A DNA stretch of 49,253 nucleotides from a virus, in IMG/VR virus record IMGVR_UViG_3300047509_000355, positions 1-49,253 of that record; one strand, given 5' to 3'. The notes under the pieces were generated by a model. The model was given only the letters and a program-made list of their open reading frames with translations. It searched no databases and was not told the DNA's origin. Shown here in pieces: positions 293-23,627 of this stretch. Within the stretch, counting starts at the first letter, position 1. The number at the start of each line of letters is the position of its first letter. Position numbers and translations under genes: made by a program.

Positions 293-336
293 ATTTTTAC
301 TTGCCTCGTTGAAGCGCGCACGCTAAAGGATCGGCC
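293..336 (+). promoter_or_regulatory. phage promoter cassette, copy 1 (leaderless type)
   Basis: -35 TTGCCT at 301-306, 17-bp spacer starting CGTTGAAG, -10 TAAAGG at 324-329, then 7 bases and ATG at 337. The match to the other copies (T-rich lead-in, TTGCCTCGT, GAAG, same -10 to ATG distance) is the evidence. Transcription starting about 7-8 bases after the -10 would place +1 on the start codon. Confidence 0.65.
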
Positions 337-870
337 ATGTACAGAAGCACACCAATGGATGAGTCTTCGATCAGTCGCCTCCAGGCCCGAATGGGCAACA
401 TCGGACGCGAAAAAGGCTACATAACTCCAGAAATTCAAGACCACGAAGCCGAAACGACGCAAGTCGACAAGGCCCTCGCCGCCTGCTGCTTCGAGATCTC
501 GGTCGTCTCGCGCAAGGCGGAGCGCATTCGCCGGGGCGAGCTGCTCGATCTGCACCCCGCGATCCGCGCGACGTTGAACGCGATGCCCAGCGGCAACGGG
601 TGCCAACTGATGAAGGTGCTGGCTATGTTGGCGCTCGTCGGTACGGAGATCACGGAGGCGGCCTCCGAAGCCGTCAACGGCAACATGCACACCACATTCC
701 GGGACTCCGACGGGAAGCCGGAAGGGTTCGCGAGCGAGATGGCAGACATCGTGCTGCGCGTGTTCGCGCTCGCCGACGCGCTGGACTACGACCTCGAAAC
801 CGAGATCAAAGCGAAGCTCGAGTACAATGCGAAGCGCCCCTCGCTGCTCGAGGCGAAGAAACTGGCATGA
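337..870 (+). CDS. MazG-like nucleotide pyrophosphohydrolase
   Basis: 177 residues. Residues 95-170 carry the MazG-type all-alpha signature: E104, E107 and E111 on one helix, then E134-x2-D137 (EMAD), then a K/N/RP tail (residues 158-168). In the family these acidic residues bind Mg2+ and hydrolyse NTPs or dNTPs to NMP and PPi; in phages the enzyme may shape nucleotide pools or ppGpp signalling. The first ATG sits exactly at the predicted transcription start. An internal ATG at 355 (MDESS) is the alternative if a leader is needed. It overlaps the next gene by ATGA. The N-terminal 90 residues are not recognised. Confidence 0.75.
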   Translation: MYRSTPMDESSISRLQARMGNIGREKGYITPEIQDHEAETTQVDKALAACCFEISVVSRKAERIRRGELLDLHPAIRATLNAMPSGNGCQLMKVLAMLALVGTEITEAASEAVNGNMHTTFRDSDGKPEGFASEMADIVLRVFALADALDYDLETEIKAKLEYNAKRPSLLEAKKLA

Positions 871-1442
871 TTCACGCTCCGCATCCCAAATGTGCAGAGT
901 GCGGGAAGGCGCTGTTCAAGGCGTTCGATGGGCCCTGGAACGGGAATCCGCCGCCGAAGGTCACGAAGGCGATGCCCTACGTGTTCTGCCGCAACGTGAA
1001 ACACTGCAACGAGGCGCGCGTCCAGTCGGCCGGAACCGGTCGCGCGCTCGAAACGCTGAAGAAGAACGTGAAAACGATGGTAAAAGAAGTGAAATCCAAG
1101 CCCGTGTACAAGAAGTACACGAAGCAGACGCTCGTCCGCTCGCCGGAGCTCGTCTCGGATCCGCCGCCGATTCCTCCGGTCACTCGGAAGACCGAAGACG
1201 GAAAGACGGTCGCGTTGAAGCGAAAGGCGATCCCGAAAGGTCCGCCGAAGCCTCCGAAGCCGGTCGACAGCGACGTGGTCGCGGTGGCACGGACGCGCGT
1301 CGCCGCGCTGATCAAGGCGTTCGGCAATGAGATCGGGCTCGTGCTCGCCCTCGCCAATCAGGAGCTCGGGAACAACGACGTAGCCAACGCGCTGATCGAC
1401 GAGTATTCGCTGAATGAGCGCTTCGGATTGGAGAAGTTCTGA
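867..1442 (+). CDS. hypothetical protein with N-terminal zinc-binding motif
   Basis: 191 residues, starting at an ATG that overlaps the upstream TGA (ATGA), so translation is probably coupled. CAECGK near residue 9 and CRNVKHC near residue 40 suggest a treble-clef or zinc-ribbon fold. A basic, proline-rich middle (residues 65-135) and a helical C-terminus follow. Probably a small nucleic-acid-binding protein, but no family is recognised. Confidence 0.7.
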   Translation: MIHAPHPKCAECGKALFKAFDGPWNGNPPPKVTKAMPYVFCRNVKHCNEARVQSAGTGRALETLKKNVKTMVKEVKSKPVYKKYTKQTLVRSPELVSDPPPIPPVTRKTEDGKTVALKRKAIPKGPPKPPKPVDSDVVAVARTRVAALIKAFGNEIGLVLALANQELGNNDVANALIDEYSLNERFGLEKF

Positions 1443-1858
1443 TGCCGCGGGAACGAACGCCCGAGAACGGTCCGAGGTGCGCATGCGGGTTGCCCGCGGT
1501 TTGGAACGGTCTATGCCAGATGGCCGACGGAATTGGGCATTGCGACAATACCGGACGATCTTCTCGAGTCGATTGTCCGCCTGCAGTTCCCGCTCCACCT
1601 CCGGGAGTGCCGACCGCGGGCTTCGCTCCGACGGTGTTCGGTGTTGAAATGAACGCGGATTCCGGTCGTCTATGGATGATCAAATGGACGATTAGAATCG
1701 GCCCGCTGAAGTACGAGATCTTGACCCAACCGCCCAATAGCGACGTGCAAGGCGTCGTGCACCTGATCAGCGGCGAGAAGCGCGGGACGCTGGTCGAATG
1801 TGCGATCGCCATCGAGCTCGAAGTGACGGCGTTGCGGGCGCTGCTGCCGAATGCCTAA
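1442..1858 (+). CDS. hypothetical protein
   Basis: 138 residues, starting in a TGATG overlap. The first 45 residues contain four cysteines (CACG, C-x6-C, C); a proline-rich linker follows, then a folded-looking part from about residue 69 (hydrophobic strands). ATG 1649 is an alternative start giving only that part. No family recognised. Confidence 0.6.
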   Translation: MPRERTPENGPRCACGLPAVWNGLCQMADGIGHCDNTGRSSRVDCPPAVPAPPPGVPTAGFAPTVFGVEMNADSGRLWMIKWTIRIGPLKYEILTQPPNSDVQGVVHLISGEKRGTLVECAIAIELEVTALRALLPNA

Positions 1859-1958
1859 GGCGGACCGGATCGCCTGGTGGATCATCGCGATCACCATCGG
1901 CGGCTTGCTTTGTTTGAAGATCGTTTCCTTTATTTACCATGTGGAGATGTTGCAATGA
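1851..1958 (+). CDS. small single-span membrane protein (35 aa)
   Basis: MPKADRIAWW followed by a hydrophobic stretch of about 20 residues (IIAITIGGLLCLKIVSFIY). It is squeezed between two genes: its ATG overlaps the upstream TAA and its TGA overlaps the next ATG, so all three frames are coupled. Placed just before an exported lysozyme-like protein, it could be a holin-like or chaperone-like partner, but that is inference from position only. Confidence 0.6.
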   Translation: MPKADRIAWWIIAITIGGLLCLKIVSFIYHVEMLQ

Positions 1959-2683
1959 GTCTCGCCGCCGCGCTGCTGTCCCTGATGATGCAGAAGGCCC
2001 ATCCCGGGCTTTCTCCCCATTCGTTCGAACTGAAACCGGAGTGCGGAACCGATGAGCGGGCCCCGACTTGTGACGTGGAAGCTCCAACGTGCGCTGAGCC
2101 TACGATCTTGTGCCGGAAGCCCGTCTACATTGACGGAGCCTGGCGCCAGGTGGAACGGAAAGAAACGGCGCGCGCGCGCTTCGCCGTCATCGCTGACGCG
2201 CTCGCTGACGAAGCGAAGGACTTTGCTGGAGAGTATGGTGGAAAAGTCTGGATTAATGGCTACGTGGATCTGGCTGCGGCGATGCTGGCGGCGAGCTACT
2301 GGAGCACCGGCTTCCGGGAGGACATCGAATCCGGCCGGAAGCGCGGGCCGGCGGGGGAAGTCTGCCTCGCCGACATCCAACCGATGATCGCGTGGTCGTT
2401 TGCGCGTTGGCCGCACGCCAACCAGAGCGTCCGCGAGGTGTCGGAGCAGATGGTCGGCTCGGACTACTTCGCGCTCCGGCGTTGCTTCGGAGCGGGGTTG
2501 AAGACGCTGTCGGTGATGCGGCGGTGGTCCGATGCGCATTGCACGCCGTTCGTTTCGCGCAGCTACGCTGGATTTTCGGCGTATGCGACGGGCAACGCCT
2601 GCACCACCGCCGGCAACAAAAAATATGGCGACTACGCGATGAAGCGTGAAGAGCTTTATCGCTTTTTTATCAGCAGGCTATAA
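1955..2683 (+). CDS. exported lysozyme/transglycosylase-like protein, possibly inactive
   Basis: 242 residues from ATG 1955 (GTGGAG upstream; ATGA overlap). The N-terminus (MSLAAALLSLMMQ) looks like a short secretion signal. Residues 105-225 follow a lysozyme-like plan that I associate with small transglycosylases: helix AAAMLAASYWSTGF, then GPAGEVCLADIQP, a paired cysteine region (C178, C196) and AYATGNACTTAG. The family usually has HESGF where this protein has WSTGF, so the catalytic Glu seems to be Ser117. It may be a binding protein or use another residue. It ends exactly where the next promoter cassette begins. Confidence 0.45.
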   Translation: MSLAAALLSLMMQKAHPGLSPHSFELKPECGTDERAPTCDVEAPTCAEPTILCRKPVYIDGAWRQVERKETARARFAVIADALADEAKDFAGEYGGKVWINGYVDLAAAMLAASYWSTGFREDIESGRKRGPAGEVCLADIQPMIAWSFARWPHANQSVREVSEQMVGSDYFALRRCFGAGLKTLSVMRRWSDAHCTPFVSRSYAGFSAYATGNACTTAGNKKYGDYAMKREELYRFFISRL

Positions 2684-2727
2684 CTTTTTTCTTGCCTCGT
2701 GGAAGCGTTGGGGATAAGAACCGAATC
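2684..2727 (+). promoter_or_regulatory. phage promoter cassette, copy 2 (leaderless type)
   Basis: CTTTTTTC then -35 TTGCCT at 2692-2697, 17-bp spacer CGTGGAAGCGTTGGGGA, -10 TAAGAA at 2715-2720, seven bases, ATG at 2728. It is nearly identical to the minus-strand copy at 9526-9575, including CGTGGAAGCGTTGG. Confidence 0.7.
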
Positions 2728-2982
2728 ATGGAAACGGCGAAGAACACGAACAACCTACCCGACGGGACGCTGGTGTCCTGGAACGCGGGGCTCAGCTACG
2801 GGCGAACCTGCGGCCCGGCGCGCGCGGTGCGCAAGGCAAAACGCGGCGCGACCGTCGAGTACATGGTCCAGCCGGGCTTCTACTCACCGATTGCCGGCCA
2901 ATGGAAGTTCGGGCAATTCCCGTCGAAACTGATGCCCGCTCGCAACCTGACGGTCGTCGATTCCCTCCCGAAAGCGCAATAA
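2728..2982 (+). CDS. hypothetical protein, first gene after promoter 2
   Basis: 84 residues starting METAKNTN. A longer in-frame reading from 2692 (MPRGSVGDKN...) is an artefact, because those codons are the promoter itself; the same artefact appears on the minus strand at 9561. The protein looks like a small beta fold with many Gly, Tyr and Trp (residues 10-75), perhaps SH3-like. No leader or ribosome binding site is present. Confidence 0.65.
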   Translation: METAKNTNNLPDGTLVSWNAGLSYGRTCGPARAVRKAKRGATVEYMVQPGFYSPIAGQWKFGQFPSKLMPARNLTVVDSLPKAQ

Positions 2983-2983
2983 C

Positions 2984-4009
2984 ATGGAAAAGACCACACC
3001 AATCGACTTCATCACCGATGCCTACCTGATCTGGGTCGGCAGCGAGCACTACGGATTGATCGACGACTACACGTCCGAGGCCGCCATCATGGGCATCTCG
3101 AAGCGCATCCCATCCATCGGCATCGGTCGCCAGATGATGGAGCCGGGTGCGGTGGTCTTCGTCGCGCACGACGAGGGCAAGAAGAAAGACTGCAAGAAGT
3201 GCGCCGGTAAATTCGAGTGTCCGGACTGCCGGAAGCGCACAGAAGAGATTGGCGCCCTGCGCATCGACTGCGACAAGATGATCGAACGCTACGCGGACGT
3301 GGCGAAGGCCGAAAAGCAGGACTTCCGCGACTGCTCAAAGATCCCGACCGCCGCGCGCGTCTTTGTCGAGCGGCGCGAGCGAAAGATCGGCGAGTTAAAG
3401 ATCCAACTCACGACCTGCACGGAGTGCGACGGGGCGGGAATGATCCATGGTGGTACCGGCGGCGCCGTTACCCTGACGGACGGCGTGGCCTGGGACTACC
3501 GAAAATACAACTACTACCTGCACCAACCCAAGAAGTTCGATCCCAGCCTCAATGTCGCCAAGAAAGACATGTGCAAGACGTGCGGCGGGACGGGCGAGCT
3601 CCCCATCGCTCAGATCTTCGGCGTCTTCATCCCGGAGAAACTCGAATACATCCTCACCGGCGAAGAGACGCCGGAGGAGCTCGCGGCGCTGCCGGACGCG
3701 GAGAAGATCTCGGCCGATCGCCTGAAGGTGGAATCGAAGCGGCGCTGCGGAAAGCGGAAGCCGGGCGGCGTGTACGTCACGACGACGGTGGGCGAGACGA
3801 CCGTGGAGGCGAAGAAGACGCTGAAGGAGCTCGAGAAGCGCGGGCTGGTTTCGAAGGGCGCGGCGGACGTGTCGGGATCGTTCATTCGCTTCCGGAGTCC
3901 GCTGAAGGTGAACGAGAAGCGCTTTCGCGGCGTGAAGCGCATCGACATGTCGAAGGTGTCGCGGGCCGCGAAGATGGAGGCGGCGGGCATCTTGGAGGCG
4001 ATGGCGTGA
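2984..4009 (+). CDS. protein with DnaJ-type zinc-finger repeats
   Basis: 341 residues. Four CxxC knuckles are visible: CKKC (70-73), CPDC (79-82), CTECDGAG (from C145) and CKTCGGTG (from C197). The last two have the CxxCxGxG form of DnaJ zinc domains, which bind unfolded protein. There is no J-domain. The C-terminal 100 residues are basic. It starts one base after the upstream TAA and ends in a GTGA overlap with the next gene. Role unknown; RNA, DNA or protein binding are all possible. Confidence 0.65.
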   Translation: MEKTTPIDFITDAYLIWVGSEHYGLIDDYTSEAAIMGISKRIPSIGIGRQMMEPGAVVFVAHDEGKKKDCKKCAGKFECPDCRKRTEEIGALRIDCDKMIERYADVAKAEKQDFRDCSKIPTAARVFVERRERKIGELKIQLTTCTECDGAGMIHGGTGGAVTLTDGVAWDYRKYNYYLHQPKKFDPSLNVAKKDMCKTCGGTGELPIAQIFGVFIPEKLEYILTGEETPEELAALPDAEKISADRLKVESKRRCGKRKPGGVYVTTTVGETTVEAKKTLKELEKRGLVSKGAADVSGSFIRFRSPLKVNEKRFRGVKRIDMSKVSRAAKMEAAGILEAMA

Positions 4010-4440
4010 TCACGCGGAAGGATGAAGTCCTGGCCTTCATGAAGGCCAATCGTGGTCAACAATTGGAGGTGGACATCGTAGCGAATATGAAGTGGAACGA
4101 CACTTCATCGATGGCCTATCGTTGGAAGCAAACGCGAGTCGCGTTGCGACGCTTGGAGAAGCAGCGCCTAGTTCAGTACGTTGGCCGATACATGTGGCAA
4201 TTCGTTGAACGAGTCGAGGACGATTCGCATGTCCCCGGCGATGAACTGACGCAAGAAGCCGTCCAAACGATGATCGAACAGCTGCGCCAGACGCGCGTCG
4301 CCTTGATCAAAATGCTTCACGATTCCGAGCACGATGGACACAATATGTCCAAAATGCCTGTTCGAACGTTGCTCGCTTACACGTTCGGAATTCCGGTCGC
4401 GGACCAACCGCCCTACTCGCTCAAACACCTGGAGCAATAA
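4006..4440 (+). CDS. winged-helix-like DNA-binding protein
   Basis: 144 residues from GTG 4006, which overlaps the upstream TGA. ATG 4039 is the alternative. Residues 5-65 read like a winged helix: ITRKDEVLAFMKAN, then a helix and ALRRLEKQRLVQYVGRYMWQFV, where the last part would be the wing. The remainder is a long helix, possibly for dimerisation. A regulator role is inferred from the fold only. Confidence 0.55.
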   Translation: MITRKDEVLAFMKANRGQQLEVDIVANMKWNDTSSMAYRWKQTRVALRRLEKQRLVQYVGRYMWQFVERVEDDSHVPGDELTQEAVQTMIEQLRQTRVALIKMLHDSEHDGHNMSKMPVRTLLAYTFGIPVADQPPYSLKHLEQ

Positions 4441-4736
4441 TGGACATACCGTATTTCGCTTCGCCCTTCGGGCTTCAACGCGGTTCGCGAAAGATGGACG
4501 CGATCCACCGGCGCGGGCTCAGCGAGTCGCTTCAGCAATTCGCGCAGCGGCTCGGCGGCCCCAACGCCAAGATCGAGGCATTCCGACCGAGTTGGGCGCT
4601 TCAAGGCCTGCGATTCCTCGGCGTCGTGCCCATGGATGAGACATGGGAGACGACCGTGGGCCGAATCGGGCCGGGCGCGCGGATCGCGCCGGGCGTCGCC
4701 GTTCCAGCCGAGTATCGAAAGTCGGACGATGTCTGA
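4440..4736 (+). CDS. hypothetical protein
   Basis: 98 residues, starting in a TAATG overlap and overlapping the next gene by 8 bases. Middle helix (residues 25-45) and a Gly/Pro-rich C-terminus (RIGPGARIAPGVAVPAEYR). No family recognised. Confidence 0.6.
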   Translation: MDIPYFASPFGLQRGSRKMDAIHRRGLSESLQQFAQRLGGPNAKIEAFRPSWALQGLRFLGVVPMDETWETTVGRIGPGARIAPGVAVPAEYRKSDDV

Positions 4737-5052
4737 GCCGACGCGCGCGGAGCTCGACGCGGCGCTTCAGTTAGTAAAGGCGGAGATCGCGATGCTGCGG
4801 GAGACGGCGCAGCACTTGGAGATTGAAGACCAGTTGCTGGCCGAAACGTTGGCGAGGCGGAGCAGTCTTGCCGCTCAGCAACGTCTCGGCCGCTCCCGGT
4901 CGCGCCCCGCGGCGGCGGAGTATTGCGAGCTCCGCCTCGCTCACCTGGACAAGGAGCTGTTGCGGCTCGAAGAGGCGATCCGGAAAATGGACGCGAACGA
5001 GGCTTGGCTTCGAAACGTAAATCGAGGAAGGTATATGGACCATGACCGATGA
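4729..5052 (+). CDS. coiled-coil protein
   Basis: 107 residues beginning MSEPTRAELDAALQ. Almost wholly helical with heptad-like Leu/Ala spacing and many charged residues (residues 5-95), so an oligomeric coiled coil is likely. It overlaps the next gene by 11 bases. Function unknown. Confidence 0.6.
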   Translation: MSEPTRAELDAALQLVKAEIAMLRETAQHLEIEDQLLAETLARRSSLAAQQRLGRSRSRPAAAEYCELRLAHLDKELLRLEEAIRKMDANEAWLRNVNRGRYMDHDR

Positions 5053-5260
5053 GACCGCTCCGAAGCTATCCGCGACCGAAACCTACAGGAACTGGCTTTC
5101 GGCCGAGCCCACGATCAAGGCCGCGATGAAGGCGGCGGTCTCGGGCTACGAGATCCCATCGATCGACGTGCGAATCGAGAACTTCGTGAAGCAGCTGGGC
5201 CACGAGATGCGCGAGGCCGCGCACGAAGAGGCCTTCGCGCCGCCCAAGCCAAAGGACTGA
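5042..5260 (+). CDS. hypothetical protein
   Basis: 72 residues, acidic and helical, overlapping the coiled-coil gene upstream by 11 bases and lying 5 bases before the sigma factor gene. It is probably co-translated with the sigma factor. An anti-sigma or partner role can be imagined from the position, but nothing in the sequence shows it. Confidence 0.6.
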   Translation: MTDETAPKLSATETYRNWLSAEPTIKAAMKAAVSGYEIPSIDVRIENFVKQLGHEMREAAHEEAFAPPKPKD

Positions 5261-5265
5261 ACACG

Positions 5266-5793
5266 ATGGACGCGGAAGCAACATTCCGCAACTGGCGCCC
5301 GCTGGCTTGGAAGATAGCCGGCGGTTACATGCGAAAATTGCCGCCCGCGATCCAGCGTGACGACATTTTCGCGGCCGCTGACATGGGACTATGGCAGGGA
5401 TTGCTTCGACTCGGCGAGGAGCCCAACGACCCCAGCCAGCAGTACTACCTGATGAGTCGGATCCGCGGCGCCGTCGGCGACGAGCTCCGGCGCCAAGACT
5501 GGTCCCCGAGGCGTTCCCGCTTGAAGACGGAAGCGCCGCAGATCGTGTATGGGGATGGCGTGGTGGAGACGTTCGTGGCGGACACGGTCGAGTCGGACTT
5601 CCTCGAATTGGACAACATCCTCGACGCCATTGAGCAACTCGGCGACCGCGATCGTTGGGTCCTCGGCCAACACGTCAACGGCGCGAAGCAATGCGAGATC
5701 GCGGCCGAGCTCGCACTTTCCGAGCCCAGAATAAGCCAACTACTGGCCAGAATCCGAAAGAACCTCGGCATTCGCCTCGGTCTCGCGGCGTAG
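5266..5793 (+). CDS. FliA/WhiG-type RNA polymerase sigma factor
   Basis: 175 residues. Residues 13-86 match sigma region 2 of the sigma-28 group: LAWKIAGGYMRKLP, DDIFAAADMGLWQGLLR, then MSRIRGAVGDELRRQDW-PRR (region 2.4, which reads the -10). Residues 118-167 are region 4, ending in a helix-turn-helix (CEIAAELALSEPRISQLLARIRKNL) that would read the -35. The linker of about 45 residues is shorter than in FliA (about 239 residues in total), so region 3 seems missing or reduced. It would redirect host RNA polymerase to phage promoters; the repeated cassettes in this window are the natural candidates. Confidence 0.8.
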   Translation: MDAEATFRNWRPLAWKIAGGYMRKLPPAIQRDDIFAAADMGLWQGLLRLGEEPNDPSQQYYLMSRIRGAVGDELRRQDWSPRRSRLKTEAPQIVYGDGVVETFVADTVESDFLELDNILDAIEQLGDRDRWVLGQHVNGAKQCEIAAELALSEPRISQLLARIRKNLGIRLGLAA

Positions 5794-5832
5794 CGTCGGG
5801 CGCGTTTCCGGTTATCGTCGCCGGTACTACAG

Positions 5833-6216: not shown

Positions 6217-6221
6217 CGCGG

Positions 6222-9315: not shown

Positions 9316-9525
9316 TCAATCGTCTCCGTCGGCGAGGATGATCGCGACTGCCTTCGTCTTCGGGATCTTCTTCAAGATCGCGGTCGCGGTCATTGGTTTG
9401 AAGCCTTGGTTCTTGAGCTCGTCGTTGAGGAGCTCGCGCGCGTGCGTTTCGTCGCGCGCGCTGATCACCGCGGCCGTGGCTACATAGCCCATGCCGCCGA
9501 AGTTCGTGCATGCGTAAATCTTCAT
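9316..9525 (-). CDS. small protein, leaderless on minus strand
   Basis: 69 residues from ATG 9525 (MKIYACTNFGG). A longer in-frame start at 9561 (MPRGSVGARSRF...) only reads through the promoter and is rejected. The ATG lies 7 bases after the -10, the same geometry as on the plus strand. Beta-alpha-beta pattern with a central helix (ETHARELLNDEL). Function unknown. Confidence 0.65.
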   Translation of the reverse strand: MKIYACTNFGGMGYVATAAVISARDETHARELLNDELKNQGFKPMTATAILKKIPKTKAVAIILADGDD

Positions 9526-9575
9526 GAATCGACTCCTAGCGCCAACGCTTCCACGCGGCAAGGAAAAAGTCGTGA
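9526..9575 (-). promoter_or_regulatory. phage promoter cassette, copy 3 (minus strand, leaderless type)
   Basis: Reading the minus strand: CTTTTTCC, -35 TTGCCG (9561-9556), 17-bp spacer CGTGGAAGCGTTGGCGC, -10 TAGGAG (9538-9533), 7 bases, ATG at 9525. It lies inside the 3' end of the upstream gene, so the operon has an internal promoter. Confidence 0.7.
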
Positions 9576-12713: not shown

Positions 12714-13059
12714 TTTTGAATCTACGCCATGCGTGCTGTTTTGGGCTGAGCCGGCGCGCGGCGGAGCTCGGGGCGCGAAATGCCATTGTTCAAAATGAGT
12801 TGTGCACAGAACGAGCCTGCATTTTACTAATTTCCATGGGTGCTCGAAAAATACCCACTGAAAAAACCGAAAATGGCGTGGACGGATGATTACAAACTTT
12901 GGGTCGCTGGCCAATTCGGCCGAGCGGTCGAACAATCTTGTATCCACAATAGTTAATGTGCTTTATTTACAAATTGATGTCAACTTTTGGAAAGTTGTCT
13001 ATGAATTGATGTAATTTGCGCCGTTCTACGTAAAAAGAGCGTGCGTTCAGTCTTTTTAG
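12714..13059. promoter_or_regulatory. divergent AT-rich control region
   Basis: Separates the leftward and rightward accessory operons. The part 12940-13045 is the most AT-rich stretch of the area. On the minus strand TTGACA (12983-12978) is a perfect -35 hexamer, but no good -10 follows at 16-18 bases; AT-rich TAAATA and TAACTA lie nearby. The rightward promoter cassette follows at 13060. An operator-like repeat sits between them. Confidence 0.5.
12972..13012. repeat. operator-like palindrome flanked by direct repeats
   Basis: CAACTTT-TGG-AAAGTTG (12981-12997) is a perfect 7-bp inverted repeat. It is bracketed by AATTGATGT at 12972-12980 and again at 13004-13012. Placed in the divergent intergenic region, this is the layout of a repressor operator; the minus-strand TTGACA overlaps the palindrome. 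Confidence 0.55.
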
Positions 13060-13089
13060 TCGACTCGTGGAAGTCTTTCGGCGTAAGCT
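13036..13089 (+). promoter_or_regulatory. phage promoter cassette, copy 4 (with leader)
   Basis: TCTTTTTAG, -35 TCGACT at 13060-13065, 18-bp spacer starting CGTGGAAGTC, -10 TAAGCT at 13084-13089. Here the ATG (13132) is 43 bases downstream with GAAAGGA as ribosome binding site, so this copy makes a normal leader. Confidence 0.6.
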
Positions 13090-13131
13090 CTCGGAGTCCT
13101 CGAAACGAAACCCCTCGAAAGGAAGATGAAG

Positions 13132-13452
13132 ATGAAAACGCCGCTCGAATTCCGACCCTTCTCGCGCTTCGACTGGAAAGCTTTCTGCGGAGCCGAACCG
13201 TTCCCGCGCTGCGGAGTAGGCCTGTACACCTCCGGTCCTCACGAACCGTTGATCGCCTCGATTCATGTCGGACTCCGAGAAGGAGTCGCGATCGTCGATT
13301 CGAGCGGTCTCGCCGTTCACTGGAGCGGGACGGAAGCCGGCGAAGACTTCGTAATTCACTTCCCGGCCGTCTCCGCGCTTCGCGCGCTCGCCCTTCTCGG
13401 CGCCGAAACGACGCGCGGCGTTCTCCTCGCTCTCGGAGGGATCGAGTCGTGA
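13132..13452 (+). CDS. hypothetical protein
   Basis: 106 residues. ATG 13132 is preferred over ATG 13126 because AGGAAG is then 6-8 bases upstream. Beta-rich with Trp and Cys pairs in the first 30 residues. Leucine is written almost only as CTC/CTT, unlike the head genes. First gene of the rightward accessory block. Confidence 0.6.
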   Translation: MKTPLEFRPFSRFDWKAFCGAEPFPRCGVGLYTSGPHEPLIASIHVGLREGVAIVDSSGLAVHWSGTEAGEDFVIHFPAVSALRALALLGAETTRGVLLALGGIES

Positions 13453-13965: not shown

Positions 13966-14169
13966 ATGTCTAAAAACGCCTTCAAGTTCCCGCCCGGCGG
14001 GCTCCGCCTCGTCTCGACGCGCGCGCGGGCGCTCCCGCTCAACGACTACCTCGAAAACCTCTCGGAGCGCGCCGTCCGCGGCGAGTTCCGCGCCGCGCGC
14101 CGTCGGACGCGCGGGGGCTCGAAAAAACGCGATTCGAAATCGATGGACTTTAGGCCGAATCGCGAATAA
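13966..14169 (+). CDS. small basic protein
   Basis: 67 residues from ATG 13966 (GGAAAG upstream). Rich in Arg and Lys (RRRTRGGSKKRDSK), so it probably binds nucleic acid. Its last codons already lie in the conserved upstream part of the next promoter cassette (from 14144). Confidence 0.55.
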   Translation: MSKNAFKFPPGGLRLVSTRARALPLNDYLENLSERAVRGEFRAARRRTRGGSKKRDSKSMDFRPNRE

Positions 14170-14233
14170 AAGACTTGAGGCGTTGACTTTTTTCTCGACG
14201 CGTGGAAGTCTAGTCGCTATACCTTATTTCACG
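14144..14233 (+). promoter_or_regulatory. phage promoter cassette, copy 5 (3-nt leader), extended form
   Basis: Extended block: GGACTTTAGGCCGAA, CGCGAATAAAA, GGCGTTGACTTTTTTC, then -35 TCGACG (14195-14200), 17-bp spacer CGTGGAAGTCTAGTCGC, -10 TATACC (14218-14223), seven bases, ACG, ATG 14234. It shares its upstream half with the copies at 15755 and 18445. Confidence 0.7.
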
Positions 14234-14425
14234 ATGTCGAACCGCCTACCGATTCTGAACAACCCCGGCTCTTTCCTCTCTTCTCGCCCCGAAGGCTGGA
14301 CGCTCGTCCTCGGACGAACGGAACGCGCGCTCGGAATTCGGATCCTCACGGAGGAGTCGCTCCGGGCCGCCCTCGGCGCCCGGTCGGTCCGCCTCCTCGC
14401 TGACGCCGTCGTGATCGAAAACTGA
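14234..14425 (+). CDS. hypothetical protein after promoter 5
   Basis: 63 residues (MSNRLPILNNPG...). No ribosome binding site; the start is set by the promoter geometry. Contains WTLVLGRTERALGIRILTEESLRAALGA, a possible beta-alpha unit. Function unknown. Confidence 0.6.
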   Translation: MSNRLPILNNPGSFLSSRPEGWTLVLGRTERALGIRILTEESLRAALGARSVRLLADAVVIEN

Positions 14426-15754: not shown

Positions 15755-15840
15755 GGTCTTTTGGCCATAGTACGTATAAAAAGCCTGAGACGTTGACTTT
15801 TTAGTAGCCTGATGGAAGTCTAGGGCGTACTACTAATTAC
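15755..15840 (+). promoter_or_regulatory. phage promoter cassette, copy 6, extended form (with leader)
   Basis: GGTCTTTTGGCC, ACGTATAAAAAGCC, CGTTGACTTTTTAG, -35 TAGCCT (15805-15810), 17-bp spacer GATGGAAGTCTAGGGCG, -10 TACTAC (15828-15833). The ATG at 15889 is 55 bases downstream and has its own ribosome binding site (CCAGGA). The first bases (ATGGTC, TTTT, GGCCAT) can fold into a 6-bp hairpin. Confidence 0.65.
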
Positions 15841-15888
15841 GAGGTCGCGACGAACCGCGGCCCGAAAAAAGAAAGCCAGGATATCAAA

Positions 15889-16179
15889 ATGAAAAACTCC
15901 CTCGTTGTCGCCGTCTCCTTCGCCCTCGTTTCGCTCGTCCTCGTCGCGCTCGTCCTCGCCGGCCTCGGCGCGCTCGCCGCGTCCGTCGCGTTGCCGGTCG
16001 TGGCGCTCGCGTCCGCTGCGCTCGCGTTCGTCGCGACTCGGACCGAGACGATTGAAGAGGTCGTCGAATTCGAGCGCGTTTCGCGTGCCTTCCCGGTCCG
16101 CGCCTTCGCGGCGATCGTGGTCTCGGTTCCGAGCGTCACCCTTCTCGTCCTCGCGGTCTTCTCCGCAATCGCCCTCTGA
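15889..16179 (+). CDS. small multi-span membrane protein
   Basis: 96 residues, strongly hydrophobic: MKNSLVVAVSFALVSLVLVA, then LAASVALPVVALASAALAFV, a short charged loop (RTETIEEVVEFERVSRAF) and a last span (IVVSVPSVTLLVLAVFSAIA). Probably three membrane passes. Holin-like or exclusion proteins look like this, but the family is not recognised. Confidence 0.65.
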   Translation: MKNSLVVAVSFALVSLVLVALVLAGLGALAASVALPVVALASAALAFVATRTETIEEVVEFERVSRAFPVRAFAAIVVSVPSVTLLVLAVFSAIAL

Positions 16180-17404: not shown

Positions 17405-17454
17405 ATCAATCTTTTTTCTTGCCTCCTGGAAGTCTAGGCCGTATAGCTACTTTC
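17405..17454 (+). promoter_or_regulatory. phage promoter cassette, copy 7 (leaderless type, best match)
   Basis: ATCTTTTTTC, -35 TTGCCT (17419-17424), 17-bp spacer CCTGGAAGTCTAGGCCG, -10 TATAGC (17442-17447), seven bases TACTTTC, ATG 17455. The -10 region GGCCGTATA resembles the GCCGATAA of FliA-type promoters. Confidence 0.75.
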
Positions 17455-17652
17455 ATGGACAACAACACCGCCTTCAACGCCTCCGAAATCGTCACCCTCG
17501 CGCGCCGCTCGGGCGGCCCGGACGCCGTCCGTGCGCTCGCCACGTTCGGCTCGAAAGAGTTCGATAAGTACAGCTACGAGCAGCTAAACGCCATCCAAGA
17601 CGCGGCCAAAGAGGTCGAGGCGACGCTGCCGGATAGCCTGTTCGAAATCTGA
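17455..17652 (+). CDS. hypothetical protein, leaderless
   Basis: 65 residues (MDNNTAFNASEIVTLARR...). The frame is open upstream (to 17374) but that part is promoter. Fully helical, acidic at the end. It starts exactly 8 bases after the last -10 base, with no ribosome binding site. Confidence 0.65.
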   Translation: MDNNTAFNASEIVTLARRSGGPDAVRALATFGSKEFDKYSYEQLNAIQDAAKEVEATLPDSLFEI

Positions 17653-17673
17653 GTCCCGCTCGTCTTTCCGCCT

Positions 17674-17699: not shown

Positions 17700-17742
17700 T
17701 AGCGGGCGCCGTAGCGCTCTAACCCCAGAAAGATCGGCCAAA

Positions 17743-18432
17743 ATGACAACCAAGAAGTACAAGAAGTCCGCTCCCTCCACGCCCGCCAAGCCTTCGCCCC
17801 GTCCGGCTCCGCCGGTTTGGCGTGAGTTCGCGATTCGCCGGCTCGAAAACCGCTTAGATGCGGAGCCGATCGAGAAATTCTTGAAGGATGCGGCGGAAGA
17901 CTTCGTCCACGCTTTCGAGTGGAACTTGGAAGAGGCGTTGAAGAAAGCCCACATTAACCAGGACATCGGGCGTTTCCTCCGCTACGCGACCACGCCGCGC
18001 GCCGCGGACGAGGCGAGCGATCCGGCGCTGCCGTCGGACGAGCGCTTAGCGAAGGCCTTCGCGTCGAAGATCGAGCAGATCGAGGAAGATTTGCTGGGCA
18101 ATAGCTGCCTCGGCTCGCCGTCGGACGGGCCCTGGACCGGGCGGTCGACCTCCTGGAGCTCCAACGTCTCGCGACTCGTAAAGTCCAACGCGGACAGGAT
18201 TCTACGCGCGTTATACCGAGACATTTTGGAGGTTTACGAGCAGCGCGCGGCGTTCGTCGGAGCGTTCGGAGCGGGCGATTTCGGTCCGAACAACCCCCAC
18301 GACGGCGAGCGAACGGCCCGGGCGCTAGAGCAAGCGGGCTTCCCGAATTGGACCGGCTCGGACGTGCTGGCCTATCTCGCGTTACCGGACGGGTCGACGC
18401 TCAGCGCGGCACAAACGACCCAAAACGCCTGA
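17743..18432 (+). CDS. hypothetical protein
   Basis: 229 residues. Lys/Pro/Ala-rich start (1-25), then a helical body (45-190) with acidic segments. AAAGATCGG upstream is a weak ribosome binding site. Contains PSDGPWTGRSTSWSSN, a polar loop. No family recognised. Confidence 0.6.
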   Translation: MTTKKYKKSAPSTPAKPSPRPAPPVWREFAIRRLENRLDAEPIEKFLKDAAEDFVHAFEWNLEEALKKAHINQDIGRFLRYATTPRAADEASDPALPSDERLAKAFASKIEQIEEDLLGNSCLGSPSDGPWTGRSTSWSSNVSRLVKSNADRILRALYRDILEVYEQRAAFVGAFGAGDFGPNNPHDGERTARALEQAGFPNWTGSDVLAYLALPDGSTLSAAQTTQNA

Positions 18433-18444
18433 ATCGAAATTGTT

Positions 18445-18531
18445 GGACTATCGGCCGAAGCGCGTATAAAACGCCTAGGCCGATGCCTTTTTTCTTTACC
18501 GATGGAAGTCTTCGGACGTATACCTATTTAC
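18445..18531 (+). promoter_or_regulatory. phage promoter cassette, copy 8, extended form (leaderless type)
   Basis: GGACTATCGGCCGAAG, CGCGTATAAAACGCC, GATGCCTTTTTTC, -35 TTTACC (18495-18500), 18-bp spacer GATGGAAGTCTTCGGACG, -10 TATACC (18519-18524), seven bases TATTTAC, ATG 18532. Confidence 0.7.
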
Positions 18532-18762
18532 ATGGACATCACGTACCGAATCAACTCGAACGAAAACAACGCAATGATCATCGCTTTCGAGGACGGCATC
18601 CGCCTCGAATACAGCCCGGAGACGGAGCCCCGCTGCGTCGAAGTGATCGACGGAAAGATCTTCACGACGGACGAACGGGCGGCTTTCGAGCTCGAATGCG
18701 AGATGAAGGCCTGGGGCGTGACGGGCGCGCACGCGCTCGGATGCGCGGTTTACCCGGGTTGA
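18532..18762 (+). CDS. hypothetical protein, leaderless
   Basis: 76 residues (MDITYRINSNENN...). Beta-rich first half (MIIAFEDGIRLEYS, CVEVIDGKIFTTDE), short helix and a Gly/Cys end. The start is defined by the promoter spacing. Function unknown. Confidence 0.65.
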   Translation: MDITYRINSNENNAMIIAFEDGIRLEYSPETEPRCVEVIDGKIFTTDERAAFELECEMKAWGVTGAHALGCAVYPG

Positions 18763-18779
18763 GCTCTAAGACTTCGGTC

Positions 18780-18808
18780 GTCCGGCTCGAACGATTCTCG
18801 AGCCGGAC
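18780..18808 (+). other. intra-operon RNA hairpin 3 (perfect 11-bp stem)
   Basis: GTCCGGCTCGA, loop ACGATTC, TCGAGCCGGAC. Same placement as hairpins 1 and 2: just after a gene driven by a cassette promoter and about 40 bases before the following ATG. No U-run. Confidence 0.7.
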
Positions 18809-18849
18809 AGCCGGAACCTAAGAACTAACACGAAATAAGGGATGAAACG

Positions 18850-19278
18850 ATGAAAAGGCTGTATCTAGTGGCATTCGCGCACTCGAACGAAATTGGCGCG
18901 GGAATCGAGCGCGAAAACGGCGTATTCGATGCCGAGAGCGCGTCAGAAGCGATCCGCTCCGCGGAGGACTTCGCGGCCGTCTATCTCCGGCCATTCGTAG
19001 GCGCCTGGCGCGTAGCGGAGTTGATCGAAGTGGTCTCGGAGGAGCACGCGATGGCGTATCTAAAGAACGGCCTCACGGAGCGCCGTCAAGGGATTCAGGA
19101 GCAGTACGGCGCCCGTAGCGGGCGCGGATTCGCCCTAAACAACTGCACGAGCAACGGGAGCGGAGGCGGCTTCACCGCGCCCGCGCCCCGAGGCTTCGAC
19201 TCGACGGAGCCGACGGTCATCGACGTCATCGCGACGTTTAAGCCGCGCGAAATCGAAGACTACGGGATGGGAGTTTAA
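18850..19278 (+). CDS. hypothetical protein
   Basis: 142 residues. ATAAGGGATG ribosome binding site. The first 70 residues are alpha/beta (KRLYLVAFAHSNEIG, ASEAIRSAEDFAAVYL); a Ser/Gly/Asn-rich loop (105-125) separates a short C-terminal part. No family recognised. Confidence 0.6.
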   Translation: MKRLYLVAFAHSNEIGAGIERENGVFDAESASEAIRSAEDFAAVYLRPFVGAWRVAELIEVVSEEHAMAYLKNGLTERRQGIQEQYGARSGRGFALNNCTSNGSGGGFTAPAPRGFDSTEPTVIDVIATFKPREIEDYGMGV

Positions 19279-19279
19279 C

Positions 19280-19867
19280 GTGGAAAAGAACAGTAAAAAG
19301 GCCGAATTCGGTCCAAAAGTCTTCCGCGGCGTGACGCTGAAGACGTACTACGCGGGCCCGCGCCACGTTTACTTAGCCGGCGAGGCTTCCGGCTTCAGCG
19401 TCCAACTAAAAGTGGAGTTTCGAGGCGGTAAACCGGCGATCTTCGACGCGACGTTGAGCGCGCCGGGCGTTTCGGTCGACTCGTCGGATACGGGCCCGAA
19501 CGCGAGCGCGGAAGGCGCGCTGTACGGCGCGCGCGAACGCCTCCGGGCGCTCCTCGCTCGGCTGGACGCGCCGTGCTCCGTTACGCGGGAAGAAACCCCC
19601 GCTCAACTGCTCGCCGCGAACGCGAAACCCGTAGAAGAAAAGACGGAAACGCCCATAGCGACCGGGATCGCGACTCTGCCCGGAGGCGCGCCGGAGCTTC
19701 GACTCCCGATCTGGTGCCGAGGGACGCGCGGCGAGCGGGAGGAAATCCCGGGTTACGAGGTCCGCCCGCGGAAGGGCGCGCGGGCCTTCGTTCGTCTCTC
19801 GGGTAGCTCCGCGGTCGTTCGCGAAGTCTCCGCGAACCGGATCCGCCCGCGCGTCGAGGAGTCGTGA
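19280..19867 (+). CDS. hypothetical protein
   Basis: 195 residues from GTG 19280, one base after the upstream TAA. Residues 15-95 look like a beta sandwich followed by a helix (FRGVTLKTYYAGPRHVYLAG, ASAEGALYGARERLRALLA). The C-terminal 70 residues form another beta part ending in Arg-rich sequence. GTGA overlap with the next gene. Confidence 0.6.
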   Translation: MEKNSKKAEFGPKVFRGVTLKTYYAGPRHVYLAGEASGFSVQLKVEFRGGKPAIFDATLSAPGVSVDSSDTGPNASAEGALYGARERLRALLARLDAPCSVTREETPAQLLAANAKPVEEKTETPIATGIATLPGGAPELRLPIWCRGTRGEREEIPGYEVRPRKGARAFVRLSGSSAVVREVSANRIRPRVEES

Positions 19868-20466
19868 CCGAGCGTCGCAACGCGCCGAACGCGAAATCCG
19901 GACCGAACCTATTCCTTCGCGTCGCGGCGTACGGCTTCGCGGCGCTGCTCCTCGTTGGCATCGTCGTGGCCCATCCGCTCCTCTCCGCAGCGTCCGCCAT
20001 CCTCGCCACGAAAGTCGCGTTAGAATGCCAACGGCGTGGCAGTAAAACGAATGCCGAACGCTTCGAAGTCGCGGTCACCGTCCTCGGTACGCTTACGCGG
20101 GCGATCTTCCGACCGCTCCGCGCGCCCTATATTTCCATCTCCCGATGGGCTTTCGAACGCTACGCGCGGGCCCACGTTCGCGCCTTCCGCGAGCCCCAAA
20201 ATCCCGTGGAAGAAAAGACGGAATTCCCCGAAGGCGGAGAGACGGATAAACGCGCGAACGAAAACGGAGCGCTCCCGGCGTTCGTCTTTACGCGCTGCGG
20301 ACGGTACGAAGCGCTTCCCGTCGTAACGGCGGACGAAAGGCCAACGAACTTAGACGAATACGCGAGCCCGGAGGACATCGCGATCTTAGCAGAAAACGGC
20401 ATCTTCACCCGAAGTCCTCCACCTAAACCCCGCGGAAGAAAGAGGAAATCCGGGAAGGGAGAGTAG
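19864..20466 (+). CDS. membrane-anchored protein
   Basis: 200 residues from GTG 19864 (GTGA overlap). Hydrophobic segment LRVAAYGFAALLLVGIVVAH (about 19-38) and a second weaker one; the C-terminal 100 residues are cytoplasmic-looking and end in PPPKPRGRKRKSGKGE. VEEKTEFPE recurs here and as VEEKTETPI in the upstream gene, hinting at related linkers. Last gene before the large non-coding region. Confidence 0.6.
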   Translation: MTERRNAPNAKSGPNLFLRVAAYGFAALLLVGIVVAHPLLSAASAILATKVALECQRRGSKTNAERFEVAVTVLGTLTRAIFRPLRAPYISISRWAFERYARAHVRAFREPQNPVEEKTEFPEGGETDKRANENGALPAFVFTRCGRYEALPVVTADERPTNLDEYASPEDIAILAENGIFTRSPPPKPRGRKRKSGKGE

Positions 20467-20772
20467 AAGGAAGTAGAGAAGGAGAACGCCCGTCCGTACG
20501 CCTACGGCCCGCGTCGAAGCCCTAAGAAGCATCGATAGCGGGCTTTCTCGCGTTCTACGGACAGAGACGAACCGCGAAGGCGCTCCCGGTAACGCTCCGG
20601 AGTTCTCGAGTTCTCCCGCTCCGGAGGCGTTCGGAAACGTTGAATTGTGCCCACCTGCCATCGGCCTGCGACCCCACGCGCGCCACGGAGCGATGGCCTT
20701 CCACCTCCGAAACGCCCAACGACAAACGCGCTTCCGGCGCCCGAATGGGGCTCGGAAAGGACATCGTTTGTT

Positions 20773-20806
20773 GCTAGCCCTATTACGTCGCTAGCCCTAT
20801 TACGTA
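20773..20806 (+). repeat. iteron pair 1-2
   Basis: Two tandem 17-mers, GCTAGCCCTATTACGTC and GCTAGCCCTATTACGTA, followed by GGCGGG. Confidence 0.8.
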
Positions 20807-20850
20807 GGCGGGTCCGTAGCGCGGTTCGCCTACGATTCGTGGGTTAGAGC

Positions 20851-20884
20851 GATAGCCCTATTACGTCACTATCCGTATTACGTA
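20851..20884 (+). repeat. iteron pair 3-4
   Basis: Two tandem 17-mers, GATAGCCCTATTACGTC and ACTATCCGTATTACGTA, again followed by GGCGGG, so the pair-plus-tail is a higher-order unit. Confidence 0.8.
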
Positions 20885-21008
20885 GGCGGGCCCTACGGAA
20901 GCGTTCCCTCTACTCGTCCCCGGCGCTCCCTCCCTACTCTACGGGCGCGCGCGTACGGGGCGGGGAGTAGGAGAGGCGGAGTCGGGAAGCGGGCCGTCCG
21001 TCGTATCC

Positions 21009-21059
21009 TATATCCCTATTACTTTAGTATACTTATTACGTCGCTATCCCTATTACGTA
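21009..21059 (+). repeat. iteron triplet 5-7
   Basis: Three tandem 17-mers: TATATCCCTATTACTTT, AGTATACTTATTACGTC, GCTATCCCTATTACGTA. Confidence 0.75.
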
Positions 21060-21073
21060 GCTAGACTAAGCGC

Positions 21074-21107
21074 GCTAGTCCTATTACGTCGCTATCCCTA
21101 TTACGTC
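21074..21107 (+). repeat. iteron pair 8-9
   Basis: GCTAGTCCTATTACGTC and GCTATCCCTATTACGTC in tandem. The second is the consensus. Confidence 0.8.
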
Positions 21108-21195
21108 GGACGGTCGGCCTACGCTTCGGCCTGTCGACCGTTAAATGGTTATTGTCGACATATACTTATGGATGTCTAGTATAGAATAGCGCAAC

Positions 21196-21224
21196 GTATT
21201 CGGCGTTACGCCGCGTCGTCCCCT
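21196..21224 (+). repeat. 29-bp direct repeat, copy A
   Basis: Identical over 29 bases to 21892-21920 inside the following gene. It contains the small hairpin CGGCG-TTA-CGCCG. Confidence 0.8.
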
Positions 21225-21542
21225 AGCGGCCTGTACAGGGGCCTGTTAGCGCTTCCAAGCTGTCGCTCGTTGCCAACGGCATTGGCAGATGGATGGAAGG
21301 CGGTGGGCCCCACTGTGGTCCAAATCGATGGCGCTTCTGTGCGTGGCGCCATGTGTGGCCCGCCCCGACTGCGCAAACTATTCGAGGGCCCAATGGTCCA
21401 AGGCCCATGCAGGTTCGTTGAGCAAAAGGCCAAAGACCATACCCATCGTAATTTTCGCCGATTTTAGTAGGCCCCAACGGCGCAAGGGAGTATGGAAACC
21501 GAGGAAACGCGACGCGCTCGCTCCCGGGATCGATTCCGCGAG

Positions 21543-21576
21543 TCAGCGCTTATTACGTCGCTAGCCGTATTACTTC
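21543..21576 (+). repeat. iteron pair 10-11
   Basis: TCAGCGCTTATTACGTC (degenerate 5' half) and GCTAGCCGTATTACTTC, in tandem, 38 bases before the next gene's ATG. Confidence 0.65.
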
Positions 21577-21613
21577 GAGCCAACTCGAAAACTTCCATAG
21601 AGGAAAGAACCGA

Positions 21614-23188
21614 ATGAAGAAGATTCAGACCGTGTACGTCGTAGAAAACGGGGCCAACTACGTGGCCACGCCCGTAGCCGAGGACGCCCGGAATCGTTTC
21701 AATGATTGGTCGAAGAACCGACTGGCCACCGCCACCAACGTCTCGCTCCGGAAGTTCGTTCCCGTCGGCTCGAAACGCGCGTCGCGCTCAGAGCCTTCCT
21801 ATCCCAACCCACCGAGACCGATGAAAAGGCTGACGGGCGGCGTGGTGTATGCCGCGTTGCTCAAAACGGCCATGTCTCCGTTTCCCGGACGGTATTCGGC
21901 GTTACGCCGCGTCGTCCCCTGGGCCGACTACGACGACCTGGACCAAAGCAACCGAATGAAGGTGATTGAGCTCGCTGCAGAATTGACGAAGGCCGTCGGC
22001 AGTGTTGACGACTCGGAAGCGGATGGCGAGGTCTGCAAGTTGTACAAAGGGAAGACAGCGTGGTATTGGGCGAGCGAACGCGACATCATCGCCAAGACAG
22101 CAGAGGAGCTCCAACGCCAACTTCATCTAACCGAAGGCCGCATCCGTGAAGCAATGCAGCCGCTGAAAAGGTTGACGGGCGAGAAGCTGTTCCAGGCGAC
22201 GACGGCGTTGAAGGGAGATCGCGCCTCGCGACTGTGGATTGCCGAATCCTCCGCTACCAAGGACCGCTACAGAGACGCGGCCGCGAAGTTGCGCGCTGAA
22301 CTGCTCGAGGGCGCGGGCGCGGAGGAAGAGGACAAGACGAAGCGCATCGCCGAGCTCGAAGACCGCGAGAAGACGTTGAAGGGTTGGCTGAAGGACATCT
22401 GCCGCCTGCTCGGCACGGACCTGAACACGGAACCGATGGGCGTGACGATGAAGTTGAAGGAGGCCTTGGACTCGCTCGCCGAGCTCCGCGCCCGGATCTT
22501 GCCCGTGGCGGATGCGGACCTGCGCGACTACCGCGAGCGAATCGCGCGCCTATTCGCGTGGCCGATGGCGAATGACGACGTGAAGACGTGGTTGGCGGGC
22601 GGTCCGACCAACGCCGGGTTCTTGAGTGACGGCGATCGGTTCGTGGAGATGCTCGTCGCCGCGTACCAGAGCGGCCAGCACAACGTGAAGGAGAAGGAAG
22701 CCGCGCTCTGGCCGACCGTTCCGCCCGCGAAGGGCTTCGAGCCCGGCGTCTTCAGCGTTTCGTTCCGCGGAGTCGCGTTGAATGCGGGTGACGAGCTCGC
22801 GTTTTCCATTCGCCCGAAGGTGCACATCGAGCAGGATGCAGACGCCGGCCCGTCCGAACAACGCGAACAAGAGATCGCGAAAAACAGCCGCTGGCGCAGC
22901 CGGTACACCGGCGAGTTGGTCGAGGTGTTCGAGGTCGACGGGAATGAGGTGAAGGTTGGCGAGCCAGACAACGCCTACGGACAGCGGTCTTGGTCCAAGC
23001 AAGACTTCAAGGCGTTGTTCTTGTCCTTCCAAGAGTGCGATGTGGCTATGTGGAATTATTTGGAATCGTTGTGGGACCAGCACAAGCTCCAGGAGTCGTC
23101 GCCCACTAAGAAGCGCTCGAAGCCCAAGAAACCGCGAAAGAGCAGAATCGCCAACAACGAGAACAAGCCGAGCCGGAGACGCCGTTGA
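21614..23188 (+). CDS. large hypothetical protein, first gene after the iterons
   Basis: 524 residues; GAGGAAAG ribosome binding site. An internal repeat is visible: PMKRLTGGVVYAALLKT (about 69-85) and PLKRLTGEKLFQATTAL (about 183-199). The middle (220-300) is a coiled coil. Residues 415-480 form a beta part (RYTGELVEVFEVDGNEVKVG). The C-terminus is very basic (KKRSKPKKPRKSR), so DNA binding is likely. Its position next to the iterons makes it a candidate iteron-binding or replication protein, but no known initiator motif is seen. Confidence 0.6.
   Translation: MKKIQTVYVVENGANYVATPVAEDARNRFNDWSKNRLATATNVSLRKFVPVGSKRASRSEPSYPNPPRPMKRLTGGVVYAALLKTAMSPFPGRYSALRRVVPWADYDDLDQSNRMKVIELAAELTKAVGSVDDSEADGEVCKLYKGKTAWYWASERDIIAKTAEELQRQLHLTEGRIREAMQPLKRLTGEKLFQATTALKGDRASRLWIAESSATKDRYRDAAAKLRAELLEGAGAEEEDKTKRIAELEDREKTLKGWLKDICRLLGTDLNTEPMGVTMKLKEALDSLAELRARILPVADADLRDYRERIARLFAWPMANDDVKTWLAGGPTNAGFLSDGDRFVEMLVAAYQSGQHNVKEKEAALWPTVPPAKGFEPGVFSVSFRGVALNAGDELAFSIRPKVHIEQDADAGPSEQREQEIAKNSRWRSRYTGELVEVFEVDGNEVKVGEPDNAYGQRSWSKQDFKALFLSFQECDVAMWNYLESLWDQHKLQESSPTKKRSKPKKPRKSRIANNENKPSRRRR
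21892..21920 (+). repeat. 29-bp direct repeat, copy B
   Basis: Second copy of the 21196-21224 sequence, here coding for part of YSALRRVVPW. The copies are 696 bp apart. Confidence 0.8.
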
Positions 23189-23577
23189 AATCCTCCGAGA
23201 CGTTCAGCTGGCGCGGAGTCGCCTTCGCTAACACGGAGGGCGGCCGGCGCTGGGACGCGGTCCCCACGCCAACGTGCCACCTCGATGCCAGCGTCGAGCA
23301 CTATCCGGACCGGCCCGGGTTCTTGTTCGTTGCGATCATCCGGAGCAACCCCGGCATGAAGACCGGGCGCGGGAAGACGCCCGGGGCCGCGCTGGACGAC
23401 GCCTTCAACGCCTGGTTCATCTTCTTCCATTCGCTACCGGCGGAGCCGAAGTTGGAGCCGGCCGAGACGCCGGCCTACTCGAAGTGCGCGACGTGCTGGC
23501 GGGCCGCCTTCCACCCGCACGACCGCTGCGATACCTGTCGGAAGGGAGACGGCCTCGGCGGCGCCAGCAAGGCTTGA
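23185..23577 (+). CDS. hypothetical protein with C-terminal zinc ribbon, TTG start
   Basis: 130 residues from TTG 23185 (TTGA overlap with the upstream TGA). Residues 10-85 resemble a beta-alpha fold of the type DNPGMKTGRGKTPGAALDDAF (a small domain common in phages). A zinc ribbon (CATC ... CDTC, about 98-118) ends it. Function unknown. Confidence 0.6.
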   Translation: MKSSETFSWRGVAFANTEGGRRWDAVPTPTCHLDASVEHYPDRPGFLFVAIIRSNPGMKTGRGKTPGAALDDAFNAWFIFFHSLPAEPKLEPAETPAYSKCATCWRAAFHPHDRCDTCRKGDGLGGASKA

Positions 23578-23627
23578 GACTTTTTCTCTTTACTTCAACA
23601 AAGTTTGTAGATAGTTAAGGAATCACG
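23578..23627 (+). promoter_or_regulatory. phage promoter cassette, copy 9 (divergent, 3-nt leader)
   Basis: ACTTTTTCTC, -35 TTTACT (23589-23594), 17-bp spacer TCAACAAAGTTTGTAGA, -10 TAGTTA (23612-23617), seven bases AGGAATC, ACG, ATG 23628. The spacer lacks TGGAAG, but the spacing and the C-ACG-ATG end match copy 5. Confidence 0.5.

Follow-up and report, generated by a model that had tools for sequence, protein, structure and literature searches.

The stretch of DNA analysed here (the window) is the IMG/VR record IMGVR_UViG_3300047509_000355 taken whole, a linear fragment of 49,253 bases from a tailed phage. Genes for terminase, portal, protease and capsid lie at 32.9-40.2 kb, and a possible tRNA, without an anticodon call, is found just upstream of the terminase region at 32318-32406. 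The terminase matches among GenBank phages are just 22-28% identical, with no close cultured relative; in the comparison with cultured phages the capsid is ~26% identical to that of Streptomyces phages and the gene at 2984 has no match. A search for the host through terminase matches in bacterial genomes (24-39% identity, Gemmatimonadota and Alphaproteobacteria) was uninformative. The window also encodes a phage sigma-70-like factor of 175 aa with regions 2 and 4 (5266-5793, plus strand), which has relatives, 32-36% identical, in four IMG/VR phages. Gene starts throughout are the output of a crude caller.

Cassettes of the window

Eight copies of a promoter-like cassette, with -35 elements at 301, 2692, 9561 (minus strand), 13060, 14195, 15805, 17419 and 18495, are present in the window, and all of them precede genes in the correct orientation. 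Cassette 1 (293-339, plus strand) comprises a T-run (294-298), a -35 TTGCCT (301-306), the box CGTTGAAG and a -10-like TAAAGG (324-329), and leads in leaderless geometry to the ATG at 337 of a MazG-like gene; an SD-like AAAGGA overlaps the -10. Cassette 2 (2684-2730, plus strand) likewise has a T-run and TTGCCT (2692-2697), followed by the box CGTGGAAG, a -10-like TAAGAA (2715-2720) and ATG 2728, with a weak purine run. Cassette 3 lies on the minus strand (9523-9569) and carries TTGCCG (9561-9556), the box CGTGGAAG and a -10-like TAGGAG (9538-9533) before ATG 9525, where an SD-like AGGAG overlaps the -10 at 7 nt from the start codon. Cassette 4 (13052-13134, plus strand), with TCGACT (13060-13065), the box CGTGGAAG, an 18 bp spacer and the -10 TAAGCT (13084-13089), is leadered: a ~35 nt leader with the SD sequence AAAGGAAG runs to ATG 13132 (or 13126).

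The other four cassettes are also on the plus strand. Cassette 5 (14187-14236) has TCGACG (14195-14200), the box CGTGGAAG and the -10 TATACC (14218-14223); its ATG at 14234 lies 10 nt past the hexamer, giving a predicted leader of ~3 nt, and is without an SD sequence. Cassette 6 (15797-15891) combines TAGCCT (15805-15810), the box GATGGAAG and the -10 TACTAC (15828-15833) with a leader of ~50 nt and a weak SD sequence (AGGA) before ATG 15889. Cassette 7 (17411-17457) has TTGCCT (17419-17424), the box CCTGGAAG and the -10 TATAGC (17442-17447) ahead of ATG 17455, again without an SD sequence. Cassette 8 (18487-18534) carries TTTACC (18495-18500), the box GATGGAAG, an 18 bp spacer and the -10 TATACC (18519-18524), and there is no good SD sequence before ATG 18532. 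A second conserved upstream block, GGACTTTAGGCC followed by ATAAAA, can be read directly from the sequence at cassette 5 (14145-14186, plus strand) and is also found at cassettes 6 (15755-15796) and 8 (18445-18486). Its spacing is fixed in these three window copies, GGCC ending exactly 47 bp before TGGAAG.

The same family was recovered by a blind repeat search of the window. When the window was scanned with the consensus CTTTTTTCTTGCCTCGTGGAAGTCT, the eight cassettes (1-6 mismatches in 25) were well apart from the next-best site, which has 8. An IUPAC core pattern gave seven exact matches and one with a single mismatch, all at cassettes, and the reversed pattern gave none. With a matrix trained on the window the eight score 31.7-41.5 and the next site 8.1, while a ninth copy that had been proposed at 23589 scores below zero; there are therefore eight copies and not nine. 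This candidate (23589-23630, plus strand), in which the SD sequence AAGGA precedes ATG 23628, ranks 85 with the window-trained matrix and ~3000 with the relative-trained one, and is ruled out by both. A matrix built only from the ten cassettes of a relative, G010, placed window cassettes at ranks 1, 2, 3 and 4 of 98,448 positions (cassette 5 at rank 1, cassette 2 at 2-3, cassette 3 at 4, and cassette 7 at 2 when TA is included).

Of the spacer box, TGGAAG is present in seven of the eight cassettes and the full CGTGGAAG is exact in four. The distances to the start codon were described correctly, with 7 nt between the -10 hexamer and the ATG at 337, 2728, 9525 (minus strand), 17455 and 18532, and 10 nt at 14234. 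Measured from TGGAAG the ATG lies at 27-29 nt in 5/8 cassettes, with one more at 31 nt. Most copies with a close start do not have T at the sixth position of the -10 and have it at the seventh instead. The window hexamers are weak and are missed by a generic sigma-70 scan.

Related phages and shared loci

Cassettes are also present in two relatives. G010 (116,461 bases) was reached via the terminase, which is 72% identical to that of the window; its capsid gene spans the ends of its record. G018 (106,758 bases) was reached by a search with gene 2984 and has a terminase 63% and a capsid 67% identical. In a terminase tree, some forks of which have limited support, a split separates G018 from the window and G010. 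A cassette of the window type was not found in the terminase relatives G006, G012 and G005, and scans of IMG/VR with patterns of the window, G010 and G018 types returned G010, G018 or seemingly unrelated chance matches and nothing else. Close starts are known from two phages, and the clear leadered version from one. In every copy from all three phages the hexamers are 16-18 bp apart, within the 17 +/- 1 bp of sigma-70 promoters.

The G010 cassettes were first met upstream of homologues of window genes. Scanning recovered ten, of the form CAAAAAAGTTCTCGACTTGTGGAAGCA, three of them identical over 24 bases. In seven the ATG is 27-29 nt after TGGAAG and 6-8 nt after the -10; the other three are leadered, with AAGGAGAG or AAGGA at the end of the leader. 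Neither the window nor G010 yielded a full copy off a promoter, all 8 + 10 preceding genes, and TGGAAG outside cassettes has an ATG 27-29 nt away in 0/43 cases in the window and 8/125 in G010. About 50 bp upstream of the G010 cassettes is the block TTCCACAA, the inverted form of TTGTGGAA, with 12 copies genome-wide against 1.75 expected (both strands), 10 of which are intergenic.

Two further, degenerate G010 cassettes are likely, one upstream of a GIY-YIG-like gene (~70682) and one upstream of 93172. The former stands directly before a frame (70682-71166) assigned by eye as a GIY-YIG-like homing endonuclease, which separates two genes that adjoin each other in the window. G010 also encodes a sigma-like protein of 353 aa (46412-47473) that has homologues in G012 and G018 and adjoins CobT-like and MoxR-type AAA genes; a degenerate cassette is seen in front of gene 43213, the first of this run.

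The G018 cassettes have the form TTTTTTTC-TTGACT-TCTGGAAGCAAGCCAAC-TATAAT, with TCTGGAAG in a 17 bp spacer, and are near the sigma-70 consensus (10-11 of 12 positions at 17 bp spacing in eight copies). These near-consensus hexamers indicate that the -35 and -10 of the original prediction were rightly placed. As the window copies fail the generic scan, they are assigned to sigma-70 through their homology to the G018 and G010 copies. All nine G018 copies with a clear gene start downstream are leadered, with SD sequences of AGGAG or GGAG type. The T-tract of some G018 promoters also serves as a hairpin tail (TTGCCTCCAAGGCAA), giving an element that resembles a terminator and is fused to the next promoter.

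Several loci are common to these phages. The promoter of gene 2984 is found at 2692 in the window and at 72511 in G010, both in leaderless geometry, and at 90012 in G018, where it is leadered. The promoter that follows gene 32-292 corresponds to 301 in the window, to a leadered copy at 95997 in G018 and to a degenerate copy near 70640 in G010. G018 therefore carries the cassette family at two of the loci of the window. Window 13060 is syntenic with G010 85230, and both are leadered. Window 18495 matches G010 88923; the proteins encoded downstream share 64% identity in an alignment that begins at residue 1, and the G010 start (88968) has the same arrangement, TATACCTATCTAC-ATG, as the one at 18532. 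In other relatives found with gene 2984 the starts of that gene appear to be leadered, in a small sample in which the promoter class is sometimes ambiguous. Since the G018 copies are leadered even at shared loci, the comparison of sequences indicates that leader use is switched within one promoter family, between the predicted close starts of the window and G010 and the leaders of G018.

Start codons with and without predicted leaders

Taking both phages with close starts together, the ATG lies 6-10 nt past the -10 hexamer in 6/8 window and 7/10 G010 copies. TA-led leaderless genes have the -10 ~6-7 bp before the ATG; the distance here is 7 nt at five window starts and 10 nt at one, and 6-8 nt at the seven of G010. 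In Deinococcus, -10 motifs 6-7 bp before open reading frames drive leaderless mRNAs (PMC12340547), and TA-led genes have been surveyed in Actinobacteria, Deinococcus-Thermus and Acidobacteria (PMC3160421). If the -10 assignment is correct, +1 is expected ~6-7 nt downstream, that is at the ATG.

An SD sequence is absent at 10/13 close starts. Their SD pairing energy is no stronger than background (median -1.5 versus -2.4, P 0.88) and compares with -4.1 for other genes (P 0.025), and the leadered cassettes of all three phages (mostly -8.7 in G018) have stronger SD sequences than the close starts (P 1.4e-4). A gene finder blind to SD sequences picks 14/18 of the cassette-proximal starts of the window and G010. 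These data are best read as leaderless or near-leaderless mRNA at the close starts, although the starts at 337, 2728 and 9525, with SD-like energies of -5.4 to -6.8, are ambiguous. The original prediction had these genes lacking ribosome binding sites, which holds at 14234, 17455 and 18532 but not at 337 (AAAGGA), 9525 (AGGAG) or 23628 (AAGGA), whose SD-like runs are normally spaced, and less clearly at 2728, where the run is weaker but the score similar. Leadered copies make up 5/18 (two in the window, three in G010), with leaders of ~35-50 nt, most with an SD sequence. Because 13060 and 15805, like the three G010 copies, feed leadered genes, a leaderless start as the rule for the first genes of units was too strong a claim. 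The idea of a promoter family that places +1 on the ATG is partly supported: for most copies a predicted +1 at or next to the ATG has good support, and the geometry recurs in G010 (7/10), but it does not extend to the leadered 5/18 or to G018.

Promoter reading and its rivals

The reading preferred here, with a probability of roughly 0.78, is that the cassettes are a family of early or middle sigma-70-type promoters, mostly leaderless in the window and G010 and leadered in G018. Promoter activity, the position of +1, leaderless translation and the use of the host polymerase are the parts of it that we infer. The cassettes would be multi-copy phage promoters read by a sigma-70-type RNA polymerase, most likely that of the host. 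An A or T tract would sit where a proximal UP element is expected, itself an inferred assignment, followed by a -35 in the versions TTGACT (G018), TCGACT (G010) and TTGCCT or TCGACG (window), by TGGAAG opening the 17-18 bp spacer and by a -10 beginning with TA. In most copies of the window and G010 transcription would begin at the A of the ATG or up to ~4 nt before it, and the leaderless or almost leaderless mRNA would depend for translation on ribosomes that recognise an AUG at the 5' end. A smaller number of copies would retain leaders of ~35-50 nt, most with an SD sequence, and in G018 every copy is leadered with a strong SD sequence, leader use presumably having changed within the family.

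One rival explanation concerns the polymerase. The box and A/T tract could be the recognition site of a phage sigma factor or activator, host sigma-70 alone not reading the cassettes. This is possible, with the odds against it, and it would be compatible with leaderless starts, contesting the host polymerase only. Sigma-like proteins are encoded in the window (5266-5793) and in G010, G012 and G018, the box is better conserved than the -10, each phage has a homogeneous version, as co-evolution with a DNA-binding protein predicts, and inverted TTCCACAA is enriched upstream of the G010 copies (12 versus 1.75 expected). Against this, the G018 copies are near-perfect TTGACT-17-TATAAT promoters, and the G010 search found no homologue of the 175-aa sigma of the window. 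The latter finding also led to rejection of the window sigma as sole reader, as G010 has cassettes and no close homologue of it. The constant TGGAAG box and the inverted G010 block suggest a possible regulator besides the polymerase. HTH proteins are encoded in a cassette-led operon of G010 (98986) and, repressor-like, at 27201-28103 of the window. These would also fit repressor operators of the stoperator type overlapping the -35 region, with the ATG geometry secondary, as would a box that is asymmetric, lies beside the -35 and is repeated in a single orientation relative to the gene. Stoperators occur throughout genomes, however, whereas no full copies were found off promoters; a fixed distance to the ATG is foreign to them, and no integrase turned up in the scan of proteins, so that this explanation is quite improbable.

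It is unlikely that these are normal leadered promoters starting farther upstream, with an incidental TA motif and with SD-like sequences (-5.4 to -6.8) that serve as the true translation signals at 337, 2728 and 9525. The leadered orthologues in G018 are in agreement with this, but it leaves the 10/13 close starts lacking an SD sequence to be accounted for, the constant 27-29 nt distance seen in both phages with close starts would be unexplained without a link to +1, and a generic scan shows no other sigma-70-type promoter upstream. Chance or a coding repeat artefact, for which no point in favour was found, is refuted by independent recurrence in G010 and G018 and its likelihood is negligible. 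A bolder version of the promoter reading, that a whole leadered early promoter family turned leaderless in a phage lineage, giving SD-free early translation, possibly with the help of a box-recognising phage factor that sets the start site, is held with considerable doubt. If it were true, the SD-independent route could be, for instance, initiation by 70S ribosomes while the host is being taken over.

The classical leaderless case is lambda cI. The discovery of leaderless initiation is credited to lambda (PMC3160421), and in the Corndog-type (cluster O) mycobacteriophages three promoters (PL1, PR2 and PL2) are predicted to have +1 on the start codon (PMC4351075). With these precedents the mechanism is already known. 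As in cluster O, a promoter of host type (SigA-like there) is predicted to start transcription at the first start-codon base of a phage gene; unlike the three individual promoters of Corndog, the present ones are a repeated cassette with a common spacer box, which serves 13 genes across two phages and has leaders in a relative. The likeness to TA-led genes (PMC3160421, PMC12340547) lies in a -10 hexamer 6-7 bp before the ATG without an SD sequence. These genes have TANNNT, whereas the motif here is mostly TA-N4-T, is accompanied by a -35, tract and box, and is confined to cassettes, TANNNT showing no general enrichment before starts elsewhere in the genome. The SAS of cluster K mycobacteriophages (PMC3203893) is also repeated, oriented and associated with start codons of the non-structural region, but it measures 13 bp, contains AGGAG and lies 3-7 bp from the ATG, whereas the box described here stands 27-29 nt before the start codon and an SD sequence is missing at most close starts. 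The stoperators of cluster A mycobacteriophages (PMC9283540, PMC6550527) are likewise asymmetric repeated sites associated with promoters; the cassettes differ in occurring only at promoters, in register with a -10 and a start codon. UP-element promoters (PMC4390567) share the A/T tract just upstream of the -35, here a putative site of alpha-subunit binding; in some G018 copies the T-tract is also the end of a hairpin resembling a terminator.

As far as searches show, what is new is the repeated cassette and the switch between leadered and leaderless forms within one promoter family. Leaderless mRNAs of phages are known mainly as single cases, and here one family spans three phages with some common loci. 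Loci with and without leaders offer a natural comparison of the gains and losses to an early gene that gives up its ribosome-binding site. Start prediction based on SD sequences will misplace such genes.

Elsewhere in the window, non-coding repeats of the form TATTACGTCGCTA(G/T)CC occur at 20770-21580 and ~28480-28650, some closely spaced and on both strands, and from their sequence look like iterons or an origin or partition site.
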